Shown here piece after piece: positions 5,032-48,291 of a stretch of 64,000 nucleotides of DNA. Each line of letters begins with the position of its first letter. Position 1 is the first letter of the stretch. Origin of the DNA: Pseudanabaena frigida (GTDB lineage Bacteria; Cyanobacteriota; Cyanobacteriia; Pseudanabaenales; Pseudanabaenaceae); the NCBI GenBank assembly GCA_003242085.1, contig QBML01000005.1, forward strand, positions 234,261 through 298,260. Direction: 5' to 3'. The translations under genes and the position numbers were made by a program. The notes under the pieces are model-generated. The model was given only the letters and a program-made list of their open reading frames with translations, was not told the DNA's origin and did no database searches.

Positions 5032-5144
5032 GCTGCCGCCAAGTGTATTAGTACATAAAGCCCAAGAAGAGAATGGCGGCGCTTAGCGCTGCCATTCTCT
5101 TCTTGGGCTTTGATTTTTTCCTAACGCGAGTGGCTACAGCTATA
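5028..5144. repeat. Family A palindromic element (copy 3), abutting copy 2
   Basis: Left end TATAGCTGCCGCCAAGTG, right end CGAGTGGCTACAGCTATA: imperfect terminal inverted repeats. The core 5057-5111 pairs AAAGCCCAAGAAGAGAATGG with its complement around GCGGCGCTTAGCGCTGC, with one mismatch. It shares the TATA at 5028-5031 with copy 2. Confidence 0.72.
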
Positions 5145-10916: not shown

Positions 10917-13550
10917 ATGGCTTCAGGAATACCTTTGTTATACAAATGGTTAAACCCGAAACGGCTAGCCATTTTAGAGGCTTGTTTAATTGGTTTAGTC
11001 GCAGGCTTAGCAGCAGTCCTACTAAAACTGGGCATTGGATGGTTAGGAGGGTGGCGTGTCCATATTGCTCATGAATTACCAGCATGGTTCGCATTGCCTG
11101 TAATTGGTTTGATCGGGGGATTTTTATCGGGATTTTTGATTGAGAAGTTTGCGACCGAGGCGGCAGGTAGTGGGATTCCTCAAGTCAAAGCTGCCTTGGG
11201 TTATGTCCCGATCGCCCTTAATTTGCGTGTTGCCGTAGTCAAATTGGCTAGTACGATCGTAGCGTTAGGCTCAGGACTAGCACTTGGTCGTCAGGGGCCA
11301 ACGGTACAGATCGGTGCTGCGATCGCAGGTCAGTTTAGCCAGTGGATTCCTAATTCGCCTGAATATCAGCGTCAACTGATTGCCGCAGGAGCCGCCGCAG
11401 GACTTGCCGCAGGATTTAATGCGCCGATCGCAGGCGTGTTATTTGTGATCGAAGAACTGCTACACGATGTTTCTAGTTTGACACTGGGAACGGCTATTCT
11501 TGCCTCATTTATTGGCGGTGTGGTTTCACGGATCTTGACAGGTCAAGGAATAAGCCAAGTTATTCCCAAAGTCCAATTTTCTGCCCAAGAAATTCCGTTT
11601 TTACTGTTGTTAGGGATTTTGGTGGGATTGTTTGCTGCCTTATTTAACAAAAGCGTTATTACCGTTACACGATGGAATCGTCAAACCTTCAGGATGGGAT
11701 TATCATGGCGGATTGCGATCGCAGGTTGTGTATCGGGAATGGCGATCGCGATTCTCCCGATAGACTTTCGCGATAGTTCGGGATTGCAGTTGTTTTTAGC
11801 AATGGGACAATCCGATTGGCAAATTACCGCAGGAGCTTTTGCAGTAAGATTTGTTCTCACACTGATTGCCTGTAGTGCTGAGACTCCTGGGGGACTATTT
11901 GTGCCTAGCTTGATTTTAGGAGCAGCGCTAGGTTCGCTAGTGGGGAATTTGGAACATGCATTATTGGGAATAGGAACTTTGGCAACTTATGCACTTTCAG
12001 GAATGGGAGCTTTTTTTGGTGCGGTGGCAAAAGTACCGATTACTGCCTTTGTGATTGTTTTTGAGATTACGATGGATTTCAATATTATTCTGCCATTGAT
12101 GATTACTAGTGTTGTTGCTTATCTCAGTGCGGAGAAGTATTCCCCTGGGTCTTTATATACCCATTTATTAGAACTGAAGGGAATTTATCTCCAAACGGAA
12201 GTAGTGACAGAAGGCTTGTGGGATGGACTGAGGGCTGCGGATGTTATGCAGAGGCAGGTGGAAACACTTCCTGAGTATCTGAGTGTTAATGAAGCGATGC
12301 AATCGTTTGCGCGATCGCGACATCGAGGATTTCCTGTCGTTGCTGATAATCATTTAGTCGGGATTATTACGCAAATGGATTTAGTTAAAGTTCAGGAAAG
12401 AAAGCTTTCTGGTGATACATCAATAGAAAAGATTATGACCCCAAAGCCAATTACAGTAAGTCCTGAAGAAAGTCTTTCTCAAGTTCTCTATCTACTTTCC
12501 TATTACAAACTCTCTCGACTACCCGTAATCGATCGCCACAAACTGGTGGGGATTATTACCCGTAGCGATATTTTGCGAGCACAGGCAAAACGCTTATGCG
12601 GGGTCAGTTCTCAAATCAATAAGCCATCATATCTTGTCTATCAGCAACGTGGCACAGCGACAGGTAAAGGACGAATTCTTCTTCCGATTAGCAATCCCCA
12701 AACTGCTCCTTATTTAATTGCCATTGGTTTAGCGATCGCCAAGGCGCGAAACTATGAACTAGAATGTCTGCATATTATCTCTTTATCCCAACATCTATCT
12801 TTATCTGAGACCTCAGTAGATTTAGCCCCTACTTTAGAATTATTTCAAGTGGCAACCAATGCTGCTGTAAGTAAACGAGTTTCTTTGCATACGCAGGTGC
12901 GCGTTGCCCATGACGTTGGTCAGGCGATTATAGAAGTAGCAGGTAATCGTCATAACGATCTGCTATTAATTGGCTGGCATGGGAATGGTAATGTCGCTTC
13001 GCCTGAGCGTATTTGGGGGGATACGGTTGATACGGTGGTTCGACAAGCGGATTGTGATGTGATGCTGGTTAAATTTAGCGATCGCTTGCAGAAGTTTAAT
13101 CCATTTAAACAAGAATTTAAAAAACCAAATATTTCCTTCGATCGCTGGTTGATTCCGATCTCTGGCGGGATAAACACTGAAAGTATGTTGATGCTTCTTC
13201 CTGCCTTAATTGCTCTTTCTCCCTATCCTGAAATCTATCTCTGTCAGGTCTTCTCTCCTGCTGATAAAGATTACGAATCTAGCCTATTAGAAAAGTATGC
13301 AGATTTCTTGTATAAATCTATTCGATTTTCCGTTGGGACGATCCCAATTTGCTCTAAATTGGTTGCTGATGCGATCGTCGATCTTGCCAATCAACAGAGA
13401 AGTGATGTAATTATGCTGGGAGCAAGCCATGAAGGAGCTTTGCAACAGATTGTTCACGGTAATATTCCTGAAGCGATCGCCCGCAATAGTGACAGAACGA
13501 TCATCATTTTCAGAAAAGCATCAACCTTTGACAATTCAAAACCCAAATAA
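10917..13550 (+). CDS. ClC-type chloride channel/transporter fused to CBS pair and two universal-stress domains
   Basis: An 877-aa protein. The ClC membrane core (about 15-410) has GSGIPQVK at 84-91, GRQGPTVQIG at 124-133, the inner-gate region GVLFVIEELLHD, and GGLFVPSLILG (GxFxP). A CBS pair follows (MQRQVETLPEYLSVNEAMQ to about 560), then two UspA-like domains (RILLPISNP near 590, DRWLIPISGG near 745, each with a GxxxxG-type end). At the position of the external gating glutamate of ClC-ec1 (GREGP) there is Gln126. The inner proton-glutamate pair (IEE) is kept. Anion movement across the inner membrane with nucleotide sensing by CBS/Usp is inferred. The last codons and TAA lie inside a family A palindrome. 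Confidence 0.92.
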   Translation: MASGIPLLYKWLNPKRLAILEACLIGLVAGLAAVLLKLGIGWLGGWRVHIAHELPAWFALPVIGLIGGFLSGFLIEKFATEAAGSGIPQVKAALGYVPIALNLRVAVVKLASTIVALGSGLALGRQGPTVQIGAAIAGQFSQWIPNSPEYQRQLIAAGAAAGLAAGFNAPIAGVLFVIEELLHDVSSLTLGTAILASFIGGVVSRILTGQGISQVIPKVQFSAQEIPFLLLLGILVGLFAALFNKSVITVTRWNRQTFRMGLSWRIAIAGCVSGMAIAILPIDFRDSSGLQLFLAMGQSDWQITAGAFAVRFVLTLIACSAETPGGLFVPSLILGAALGSLVGNLEHALLGIGTLATYALSGMGAFFGAVAKVPITAFVIVFEITMDFNIILPLMITSVVAYLSAEKYSPGSLYTHLLELKGIYLQTEVVTEGLWDGLRAADVMQRQVETLPEYLSVNEAMQSFARSRHRGFPVVADNHLVGIITQMDLVKVQERKLSGDTSIEKIMTPKPITVSPEESLSQVLYLLSYYKLSRLPVIDRHKLVGIITRSDILRAQAKRLCGVSSQINKPSYLVYQQRGTATGKGRILLPISNPQTAPYLIAIGLAIAKARNYELECLHIISLSQHLSLSETSVDLAPTLELFQVATNAAVSKRVSLHTQVRVAHDVGQAIIEVAGNRHNDLLLIGWHGNGNVASPERIWGDTVDTVVRQADCDVMLVKFSDRLQKFNPFKQEFKKPNISFDRWLIPISGGINTESMLMLLPALIALSPYPEIYLCQVFSPADKDYESSLLEKYADFLYKSIRFSVGTIPICSKLVADAIVDLANQQRSDVIMLGASHEGALQQIVHGNIPEAIARNSDRTIIIFRKASTFDNSKPK

Positions 13551-13592
13551 ATAGAGGCAGCGCTTCGCGCCGCCTCTATTTATTTGGGTTTT
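13538..13592. repeat. Family A palindrome containing the ClC stop codon
   Basis: AAAACCCAAATAAATAGAGG...CCTCTATTTATTTGGGTTTT with a GCAGCGCTTCGCGCCGC centre and one mismatch. The TAA at 13548-13550 that ends the ClC gene is part of the left arm. Its right flank is interrupted by a family B copy; the usual family A right flank (TATGTCCTAAGCAAAACTT) resumes at 13695. Confidence 0.75.
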
Positions 13593-38388: not shown

Positions 38389-38504
38389 TATGGCAATGTA
38401 AGTTTTGCTTAGGAAATAAAACCCAAAAGATGAGTGGCGGCGCGAAGCGCCGCCACTCATCTTTTGGGTTTTGATTTGTCCTAGATATCTCTTGCGCCGC
38501 TATA
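38389..38504. repeat. Family A element with perfect 26-bp-arm hairpin
   Basis: Left flank TATGGCAATGTAAGTTTTGC, right flank ending CTTGCGCCGCTATA. The core 38418-38472 is a perfect hairpin (arms start AAAACCCAAAAGATGAGTGG, centre GGCGGCGC GAA GCGCCGCC). A second copy of the flank sequence (TATAGCAATGCAAGTTTTGC) lies at 38354-38373, just left, as if a second element lost its core. Confidence 0.78.
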
Positions 38505-39199: not shown

Positions 39200-39254
39200 A
39201 AAACCCAAACCAAGAAAGGCGGCGCTTAGCGCCGCCTTTCTTGGTTTGGGTTTT
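39200..39254. repeat. Family A palindrome with perfect 26-bp arms
   Basis: AAAACCCAAACCAAGAAAGG... with GGCGGCGC TTA GCGCCGCC centre, a perfect hairpin. The right flank reads TATGTCCTAAGCTAAACTTG (39255 onward), the uninterrupted form of the flank that is split by a family B copy at 13592-13694. Confidence 0.78.
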
Positions 39255-44187: not shown

Positions 44188-45540
44188 ATGACCGATTGGT
44201 TATGGTTGCAGCGATCGCTACCTACGGCAATGACGGGGGCAGATCTGTGGGAAGCACTCTATGCTAGTGAACCAATTACGGTTTTACTCGAAAGCCCTGC
44301 TAGGGTTCCTTCAAAATTAGCGCGTTATTCGATCGCCGCAGGAAAACCACGTCAGATTTGGACTCCCAATCTTGGTGAGATTTTGCCATGCCTCGATCGA
44401 TTGCGATCGCGAATGCAAACCGCTCAAAATTCTAGTTCAGATTTGCCAGAGCATTTGCCTTTCACTGGCGGTTATTTAGGTTGGCTCGGTTATGACCTTG
44501 CTTGGGAAATTGAGCGTTTGCCCTATACCAAACCTGATACTTTGCCATTCCCAATTGCCTTTTGGTATGAGCCGTCAAGCTTTGCGGTCATCGATCATCA
44601 GACTCAAGATGTTTGGTTAGCTGCAAGCGATCGCCTAGAGCTAAAAGAACTAAGCGATCGCTTAAGCAATAGAATTTCTACAAGCATTGTGTTCCCGCCT
44701 TCGGCGGGAACACAATGCTTGTCCGTCACCTATTCACCAGAACAGATTGGCTATGAAGCGATGGTGGAGAAAGCAAAGCAACATATTCACGCTGGTGATA
44801 TTTTTCAAGCAAATCTCTCGATGCGATATAGCTATCCGTGGCAGACGGATGGCTGGCAACTATATCGATATTTACAAAAGATTAATCCGTCCCCATTCGC
44901 TAGTTATTGGCGTACTAGTTGGGGGGAAGTAATTAGTGTGTCGCCTGAACGGCTGGTGAGCTTGCGCGATCGCCATATCGAAACTCGTCCGATCGCTGGT
45001 ACGCGACCACGCGGTAAAACTGAGCCACAAGATCGCGAATTTGAACGCGAATTACTTGCCTGTAATAAAGAACAAGCCGAGCATATTATGCTTGTCGATC
45101 TCGAACGTAATGATTTAGGGCGAGTTTGTGAATGGGGTAGTGTTAAGGTCGATGAACTGCTGGCGATCGAGCGATATAGCCATGTGATGCACCTAGTTAG
45201 TAATGTTGTTGGTACGTTGCGGAGCGATCGCACCTTGGTCGATTTGATTCGCTCTACATTTCCTGGAGGAACAATCACAGGCTGTCCCAAAGTGCGCTGT
45301 ATGGAGATTGTCGAAAAGCTCGAACCTCAACGTCGTAGCTTGTTTTATGGCTCCTGCGGCTATATCGACAAGCGTGGAAATATGGATCTGAATATTTTGA
45401 TTCGGACTTTACTCAAAACTGGCGATCATATTTGGGGGCAAGTCGGCGCGGGGATTGTCGCGGATAGCATTAGCGATCGCGAATGGCACGAATCTTTGCA
45501 AAAGGCTCAAGCGCAACTGGCTGCTCTGGGATTGGTTTAA
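44188..45540 (+). CDS. Chorismate-utilising enzyme: anthranilate/aminodeoxychorismate synthase component I
   Basis: 450 aa of the TrpE/PabB family. Motifs: ITVLLESPARVPSKLARYSI, GYLGWLGYDLAWEIERLPY, NPSPFASYWRTSWGEVISVS, RPIAGTRPRGKTEPQDREFE, LVDLERNDLGRV, TFPGGTITGCPKVRCMEI and GQVGAGIVADSISDREW. The residue after PI in PIAGT is Ala as in anthranilate synthase; E. coli PabB has Lys there, but Ala-bearing PabB proteins are known, so TrpE versus PabB cannot be settled. The shorter length leans to PabB. An in-frame 43-nt hairpin (44680-44722) encodes residues 165-179 in a variable linker. No trpG/pabA neighbour. Confidence 0.9.
   Translation: MTDWLWLQRSLPTAMTGADLWEALYASEPITVLLESPARVPSKLARYSIAAGKPRQIWTPNLGEILPCLDRLRSRMQTAQNSSSDLPEHLPFTGGYLGWLGYDLAWEIERLPYTKPDTLPFPIAFWYEPSSFAVIDHQTQDVWLAASDRLELKELSDRLSNRISTSIVFPPSAGTQCLSVTYSPEQIGYEAMVEKAKQHIHAGDIFQANLSMRYSYPWQTDGWQLYRYLQKINPSPFASYWRTSWGEVISVSPERLVSLRDRHIETRPIAGTRPRGKTEPQDREFERELLACNKEQAEHIMLVDLERNDLGRVCEWGSVKVDELLAIERYSHVMHLVSNVVGTLRSDRTLVDLIRSTFPGGTITGCPKVRCMEIVEKLEPQRRSLFYGSCGYIDKRGNMDLNILIRTLLKTGDHIWGQVGAGIVADSISDREWHESLQKAQAQLAALGLV
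44680..44722. repeat. Perfect hairpin inside the chorismate-enzyme coding sequence
   Basis: ACAAGCATTGTGTTCCCGCC, loop TTC, exact complement (44703-44722). 43 nt; it stays in frame and encodes about TSIVFPPSAGTQCLS between two conserved segments. Its shape (20-bp arms, 3-base loop) is that of the intergenic family A hairpins, although its sequence differs. Confidence 0.8.
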
Positions 45541-45564: not shown

Positions 45565-45613
45565 GTCAAAAATTGGTGATGCGGAGCTTCCTCGCGCATC
45601 ACCAATTTTTGAC
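45565..45613. terminator. Hairpin downstream of the chorismate-enzyme gene
   Basis: GTCAAAAATTGGTGATGCG pairs with its exact complement at 45595-45613, loop of 11. It follows the stop at 45540 by 24 bases. Short runs of T in the right arm suit termination. Confidence 0.6.
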
Positions 45614-46132: not shown

Positions 46133-46259
46133 TATAGCTAAAGCCAAAAGAGGGTTGCGGCGCGAAGCGCCGCAACCCTCTTTTGGCTTTGTCCTAAATA
46201 ATTGACTACCACTATATAAAAAACAGGGTGATCAAGAGGTGCTTTGCGCCTCCTGATCA
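46133..46259. repeat. Family A element and adjacent hairpin
   Basis: 46133-46217: TATAGC end, core AAAGCCAAAAGAGGGTTGCG with GGCGCGAAGCGCC centre (46140-46190, perfect), then TTGTCCTAAATAATTGACTA as in other right flanks. Next to it is a separate imperfect hairpin, TGATCAAGAGGTGC TTT GCGCCTCCTGATCA (46229-46259). Confidence 0.7.
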
Positions 46260-48236: not shown

Positions 48237-48291
48237 AAACCCCAATAAATAAAAGGCGGCGCTCTGCGCCGCCTTTTATTTATTGGGGTTT
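48237..48291. repeat. Family A palindrome with perfect 26-bp arms
   Basis: AAACCCCAATAAATAAAAGG with GGCGGCGC TCT GCGCCGCC centre and exact complement. It lies between the divergently transcribed pmbA and helicase genes, so it could influence both leaders. Confidence 0.75.

Follow-up and report, generated by a model that had tools for sequence, protein, structure and literature searches.

A perfect 43-nt hairpin lies in frame within a PabB-like gene of Pseudanabaena frigida, in the window (the whole 64,000-nt stretch of DNA that was analysed). We read it, with a probability of about 0.55, as a copy, within coding sequence, of a dispersed palindrome. On this reading the copy sits in a permissive protein linker that has been overwritten repeatedly by repeats, with DNA-level renewal or replacement of the arms. 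Across species of the genus, four different multicopy repeats occupy this linker, and repeat DNA seems to write this segment of PabB.

The gene, its linker and the hairpin

The host gene (44188-45540, plus strand) encodes 450 amino acids and matches aminodeoxychorismate/anthranilate synthase component I in both profile and structure comparisons. The model for anthranilate synthase component I (NF004610) scores 699.1 bits against a cut-off of 568, and the PabB-clade2 model (TIGR01824) is over its cut-off, with 413.9 bits against 408.55. The Pfam domains are PF00425 (297 bits) and PF04715. An AlphaFold model built from 43 sequences has a pLDDT of 89.7, and its best PDB matches are to B. subtilis PabB (7pi1 and 7qu9, TM 0.82-0.85). 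Judged by these matches, the protein is a PabB-like chorismate-binding enzyme, for which the PabB and the anthranilate synthase models both exceed their cut-offs. The named orthologues at 78-85% identity (L053-L059 and L121) are all from Pseudanabaena.

Residues 152-182 (44641-44733, plus strand) form a variable linker, the bounds of which were fixed after inspection of the alignment. The hairpins of orthologues are concentrated here. The residue blocks 161-170 and 171-180 have pLDDT values of 63 and 69, the lowest of 45 blocks, and because confidence in the model is at its lowest in this part of the protein we read the linker as a loop that is probably disordered.

The hairpin itself occupies 44680-44722 on the plus strand. 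Its arms (44680-44699 and 44703-44722) are complementary at 20/20 positions and enclose a TTC loop at 44700-44702. It overlaps codons 165-179, TSIVFPPSAGTQCLS, and its 43 nt are not divisible by three. The arms, loop and open reading frame are confirmed, and on these points the sequence-only reading of the window holds. It had described a perfect 43-nt in-frame hairpin with 20-bp arms and a 3-base loop, encoding about 15 residues (we obtain the same peptide), in an apparently variable linker ahead of the chorismate-binding core, which is where the pLDDT minimum falls (blocks 161-180).

The PabB hairpin is beyond chance. The window contains 19 hairpins whose arms pair perfectly over 11 bp or more, and five first-order Markov resamplings gave 0, 1, 0, 0 and 0. 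Folded as RNA, the surrounding 201 nt have a z-score of -7.76, with 0 of 200 shuffles as low, and the hairpin alone folds at -36.5 kcal/mol. The location inside a gene is unusual, both in the window and in a sample of its own genome. By midpoint, 18 of the 19 window hairpins lie outside the ORFs considered (the listed ORFs, with overlapping ones dropped by hand), the PabB hairpin being the sole one inside. The genome is 5.39 Mb in 67 contigs. A 464-kb sample of it (the window plus 400 kb from two contigs) contains 151 hairpins with stems of 12 bp or more, and in 79 of these the loop has 3 nt. A crude ORF caller places 9 of the 151 within ORFs, and three of these lie in possibly spurious ORFs of 91-123 aa.

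Two other hairpins of this genome deserve a brief description. Just 3' of the PabB-like gene, a noncoding hairpin of 19 bp with an 11-nt loop (45565-45613) has a sub-threshold Rfam match only. Elsewhere (G000:C5:57937-57980), a 17-bp hairpin with a 10-nt loop lies in a coding stretch that reads DQSGSPVEILGYLID and then ISDRKQAE. This peptide resembles a conserved PAS/PAC motif, and the palindrome perhaps arose within a conserved protein, without insertion.

A dispersed palindrome family

The centre of the hairpin is a 29-nt core, TTGTGTTCCCGCC-TTC-GGCGGGAACACAA (44687-44715, plus strand), common to dispersed palindromes that we call class A. The core is identical at 29/29 positions to a copy in genome G029 that lies outside long open frames. 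This match to dispersed copies agrees with the repeat origin that the earlier reading had proposed. It had also placed the hairpin in the same class as the intergenic hairpins, which is correct for the shape but not for the core, as the window's own intergenic hairpins have different cores.

The window copy fits the strict class A consensus, TTGTKTYCCCGCC-TTC-GGCGGGRAMACAA, which was written by hand from observed copies. This consensus is present in 17 of 291 genomes of the taxonomic class, that is in 17/25 genomes of the genus and 0/266 others, with up to 18 copies per genome. A 65-nt class A query, searched at E up to 10, finds matches in 26/26 genomes, with a best E above 0.01 in six of them. 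In the window's own genome the PabB copy is the sole one that fits the strict consensus. The 65-nt query has six matches there; two are the PabB site itself on both strands, and the other four have E above 0.007 and thus do not share whole arms. The CCCGCC...GGCGGG centre recurs at four other sites of this genome. Three of these are in no frame open for more than 100 aa, and the fourth (L002) is within open frames and reads as a stretch ahead of a gene.

We compared sixty class A copies outside PabB, hand-picked among the better matches with the own genome left out, one of which (L221) is in the wrong register. They have a common inner stem and variable outer arms, many of which include GTACRGG. 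The window outer arm, ACAAGCA, is unlike this commonest ...GTACRGG form; gtacrgg or ccygtac is present in many of those sampled. A crude ORF caller places 30 of the sixty between tandem genes, 15 between divergent and 5 between convergent genes, and 10 within an ORF of at least 70 aa, with no clear pattern of gene orientation around them. Eight of the sixty are open over 40 aa on both sides, as judged by open frames alone.

A Y1 transposase was considered as the mobiliser of class A and was rejected, the class A core being absent from 30/30 Y1_Tnp loci among the matches listed. A longer, MITE-like frame may surround some class A copies; with the ends GCGCTTTTCA..CAAGC and AGACTRG it has four matches in 4/26 genomes, and it was not seen around the PabB copy. 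Some of the class A-type hairpins at L153-L156, L004, L043, L049, L050 and L051 do lie inside a longer element with GCGCTTTTCA..CAAGC/AGACTRG-like ends, which is possibly a MITE.

The window has an intergenic hairpin family of its own (38418-38472, 39200-39254, 48237-48291, 46140-46190, 5057-5111 and 13538-13592). Its members have similar ends and centre (AAAACCC or AAAGCC ... GGCGGCGC) and a loop of 1-3 nt, but vary in their middles, in which pairing is complete or almost complete.

Four repeats in one linker

For a survey of the linker, 110 loci yielded 102 distinct coding sequences of the orthologue. Of the 21 hairpins in them whose arms pair perfectly over 9 bp or more, 17 lie within the linker, which gives 17 in 10,116 nt of linker against 4 in 132,063 nt elsewhere. 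We report this concentration without a probability, since the sequences are related and the linker bounds were set post hoc. All but one of the linker hairpins (16/17, in 14 sequences) are from Pseudanabaena, the remaining one being from a Nostoc, and the four hairpins found elsewhere in the coding sequences all come from other genera.

A PabB orthologue is present in 24 of the 26 genomes of the genus. Their linkers were assigned by eye to classes A-E: nine carry class A, ten class B, one class C and one class D, and in three nothing was recognised. For three eroded class A linkers (L008, L010/L054 and L019) the class call is a judgement. Class B linkers contain the palindrome AAGGGGCTTAAGCCCCTT, CAAGGGGCTTAAGCCCCTTG or a near form, the class C linker contains the hairpin CCCTCTCCC..GGGAGAGGG, and the class D linker, in the PabB gene of G010, consists of a 7-nt tandem repeat, AATTACG. 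These are repeats in their own right. The class B palindrome AAGGGGCTTAAGCCCCTT is found in 26/26 genus genomes with 2 to 119 copies, the class C hairpin is multicopy in the genus (25/26 genomes), and the class D tandem repeat is found in 15/26 genus genomes, the PabB gene of G010 among its sites. Reversed-pattern controls returned 0 for all four classes.

The class A copies of PabB linkers, as read, are all in frame and give FPP(S/K)AG or variants. Each time the hairpin is 7-11 residues before a conserved YSPEQ stretch and in the same frame. Common descent, or selection on the peptide, could account for this single reading frame in the class A lineages.

Class B palindromes were also observed in other proteins. 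A protein with a Y1_Tnp domain carries four in-frame class B palindromes (peptide RGLSPL) at L282 (G011:C1, open frame at about 1122-2529 of the locus) and at L343 (G028:C292), in genomes with 39 (G011) and 119 (G028) class B copies; such palindromes are absent from the other 29 of 30 Y1_Tnp loci among the matches listed. In G011 (L307-L342), 9 of the 39 class B copies, at six loci, are in frames open for at least 50 aa on both sides. These frames are PabB, the Y1_Tnp protein (four copies), a P-type ATPase-like and an AMIN-domain-like protein (names obtained by reading the sequence), a long unnamed frame and one that is maybe spurious. In-frame palindromes may be common in Pseudanabaena.

How the arms change

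How does the stem of the hairpin evolve? We aligned nine class A copies from PabB linkers; the rows were hand-chosen, two are from one gene (L033), and the alignment omits L008, which has a shifted centre, and two decayed L032 copies. In this alignment 14 of the 20 stem pairs have two-sided changes. Paired cells make up 83.3% (shuffles: 67.0%). The covariation score of 0.517 compares with 0.210 in shuffles (0/500 as high) and with at most 0.180 when the alignment is slid. The number of further pair types has no excess, with 22 against 20.1 in shuffles and 115/500 shuffles reaching that number. Among the 180 cells, 33 are two-sided changes, 2 are one-sided and still paired, and 3 are GU. Thirty cells are unpaired, and 25 of these belong to the six outermost pairs.

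Comparisons between individual copies depend on how clear the orthology is. Among the 14 inner pairs, L057 and L058 differ by six two-sided changes and no one-sided change, at 10% divergence of the gene core, and L014 and L057, which are 8% apart, differ by five two-sided changes, one one-sided change and one other. Many two-sided changes occur where orthology is uncertain; among the most clearly orthologous copies (L054, L057 and L019) there are none, and each gene pair has 1 to 3 one-sided or unpaired differences. The loop is inverted between close copies, GAA in L010/L054 and TTC in L015/L057, with 13/14 inner pairs identical. Loop inversion apart, the copies with the clearest orthology erode.

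Selection on an RNA hairpin is expected to leave G-U steps, whereas copying between arms or replacement with a fresh copy is not. The inner 14 pairs include 2 GT and 2 A-C/C-A mismatches; in these very small numbers G-U is not in excess. The mostly two-sided arm changes between species, with few G-U, and the inverted loop favour DNA-level renewal or replacement over RNA selection. Replacement gains weight because only loop inversion, and no arm homogenisation, is seen between clear orthologues. The erosion of these copies argues against renewal of the arms in place, and for replacement wherever the arms are new.

Competing explanations

The preferred reading, turnover of repeats in a permissive linker, can be described as a series of steps. 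A repeat would arrive in the linker either through transposition or, at replication, as a copy of another repeat, and the linker would be trimmed or overwritten in place. Perfect arms could be restored at the DNA level, through template switching between the arms or through replacement by a fresh copy; the data favour neither decisively. The linker, which is probably neutral, would tolerate many sequences provided that the frame stays open. The peptide would then be a by-product, and a function of the hairpin would be unnecessary.

The history of the linker was examined on a tree of rpoB and PabB combined, in which G028 is placed by PabB alone, without rpoB. The five linker states require at least seven changes on this tree (2000 shuffles: mean 11.5, minimum 7), and the root state is D, A or B. 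On it A and B are intermingled, and G009 and G019, beside the outgroup G010, carry B. G030 and the window's genome, G000, are sisters at 100 in the rpoB and combined trees; they are non-sisters in the PabB core tree, the deep nodes of which are weak.

An unlikely contender is that class A entered the linker separately in several lineages, without any maintenance of the arms in place. The interleaving of A and B and the minimum of seven changes are consistent with such independent replacements, and so are the outer arms, which vary between lineages, and the clear orthologues, which show erosion only. However, the root state is ambiguous, the class A hairpin has the same frame and nearly the same distance from YSPEQ each time, and class A is common to members of a five-member clade and of two pairs, as under inheritance.

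The linker might also be an actively targeted landing pad, where an existing coding hairpin, exposed in single-stranded DNA at replication, attracts successive unrelated palindromes (A, B and C). We regard this as rather unlikely. If targeting were true, the turnover of repeats would dictate the amino-acid sequence of the linker, and would do so in a cyanobacterium that is free-living.

A recent in-frame insertion of one palindrome, adding about 15 residues, is the rival that follows the sequence-only reading, by which relatives lacking the repeat should show a gap of about 14-15 residues. The 29-nt core identity with the G029 copy and the probable disorder of the linker are compatible with this, and the multi-copy relatives L055 and L058 do have much longer linkers (60 and 70 aa), the only ones to do so. 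The other linkers do not fit. The linker is 31 aa long in the window. Orthologues from other genera (78) have linkers of 25-55 aa with a median of 30.5 aa, and 0/78 are at 20 aa or below; the shortest within the genus is 30 aa. Genus linkers with a single class A copy (seven) have 30-37 aa, those of class B 33-34 aa, class D 42 aa and class C 44 aa, and those with no recognised repeat 37-38 aa. Because hairpin-free linkers are equal in length or longer, a single hairpin adds no length, and neither the net insertion nor the expected gap is supported. No empty site was found among the orthologues, hence the entry of the repeat is not seen.

Further points bear on insertion. A bare 43-nt hairpin would disrupt the frame, and no other match in the own genome shares the whole arms. 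Same-length orthologues similar to TSIVFPPSAG were said to speak against an insertion, and here the evidence goes part of the way: the window's TSIVFPPSAGTQCLSVTY corresponds to DEIVSLPKTGTQFRNSITY in the sister genome G030, by reading an apparently homologous, eroded version of the hairpin, which folds at -7.5 rather than -36.5 kcal/mol. We rejected an insertion of this kind on the linker lengths, and consider it improbable. The long linkers have a structure of their own. In L055/L033 and L058/L032 they are made of repeated units, each a hairpin plus a YSPEQ-like stretch, with at least one decayed copy each and a perfect copy adjoining the core.

Selection at the mRNA level, e.g. for slowing the ribosome between protein parts or for stabilising the message, could keep a hairpin with so stable a fold, and the many two-sided changes do keep the pairing. 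The sequence-only reading had likewise suggested that translation may be affected. Such selection is nevertheless highly improbable in our estimation, as the pattern of change speaks against it. One-sided paired and GU cells are few beside the two-sided ones, the inner pairs are without a G-U excess, and the weakly folding G030 version is not alone: the hairpin is eroded in L008, L010/L054 and L019, and replaced or absent elsewhere. Similar-shaped intergenic hairpins are common, but a rho-independent terminator or other regulatory RNA within the gene is scarcely credible and was rejected, as the hairpin is missing from the output of a terminator scan, no T-run follows either arm, a search of Rfam up to E 1 gave nothing at this position, and 15 of the 60 sampled class A copies lie between divergent genes (by the crude ORF caller).

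Comparison with known systems

The closest known phenomena are the Rickettsia palindromic elements (RPEs), REPs inside genes, and template-switch mutation. RPEs are reportedly the subject of studies by Ogata from 2000 and 2002, and small dispersed repeats have been described in Nostoc. A search of the literature on palindromes in Pseudanabaena, covering titles and the openings of abstracts, with subscription papers mostly outside its coverage, had none on this subject among the papers listed.

RPEs are, according to excerpts of one account, dispersed palindromes of about 150 bp that are found in frame inside unrelated protein genes (PMC10969869). The window hairpin resembles them in being palindromic, multicopy and in frame within a gene, a likeness of description and not of sequence. 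It differs in that the linker here is not lengthened by its perfect 43-nt hairpin, and in that one linker is common to four unrelated repeats in Pseudanabaena. REPs are palindromes of 20-40 bp that are mostly intergenic, with some within genes; the paper that describes them also counts the short RPEs (RPE-4 and RPE-6) as CGTC REPs and reports different REPs at about the same recB site in two Xanthomonas species (PMC3733652). Its main text contains neither the word 'Pseudanabaena' nor the class B core. Unlike REPs, class A has flanks without a conserved GTAG or CGTC end (60 copies, by inspection). There is no GTAG beside the window hairpin, and the CGTC at 44724-44727 is absent from the flanks of those 60 copies on the same inspection. 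A linked RAYT is also lacking, with the class A core in 0/30 Y1_Tnp loci among the matches listed.

Template switching is described, in portions of two papers, as producing arm homogenisation and spacer inversion, also in coding DNA (PMC8794818, PMC8604942). The inverted loop between close relatives, GAA against TTC, is of this kind. Those studies concern RNA genes and yeast genes, whereas the palindrome here comes from a dispersed repeat, and there is no arm homogenisation between the closest PabB copies. In the mitochondria of Nematomorpha, perfect inverted repeats lie within protein-coding genes and both arms encode conserved protein, as an extract of the report has it (PMC6649704); the PabB hairpin sits in a linker that is not conserved. 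Small mobile sequences of enterobacteria, as outlined in the abstract of another report, are intragenic and read as protein (PMC2759123). They share with the PabB hairpin the translation of small repeats within genes, with repeat units of 103-168 bp compared to 43 nt here.

On this comparison the hairpin works like an RPE or an intragenic REP but fully fits neither definition, because there is no net insertion, no GTAG/CGTC tag was seen and no class A-linked transposase was found. The retention of pairing across lineages, with few G-U and without evidence for an RNA function, suggests caution in taking covariation as proof of a functional RNA. Coding palindromes have already been described in Rickettsia, as intragenic REPs, as enterobacterial repeats and in worm mitochondria. 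What Pseudanabaena adds is one linker in which 21 of 24 orthologues carry one or another of four unrelated repeats. Within a single genus, nature has here replicated the experiment of turning repeat DNA into protein.
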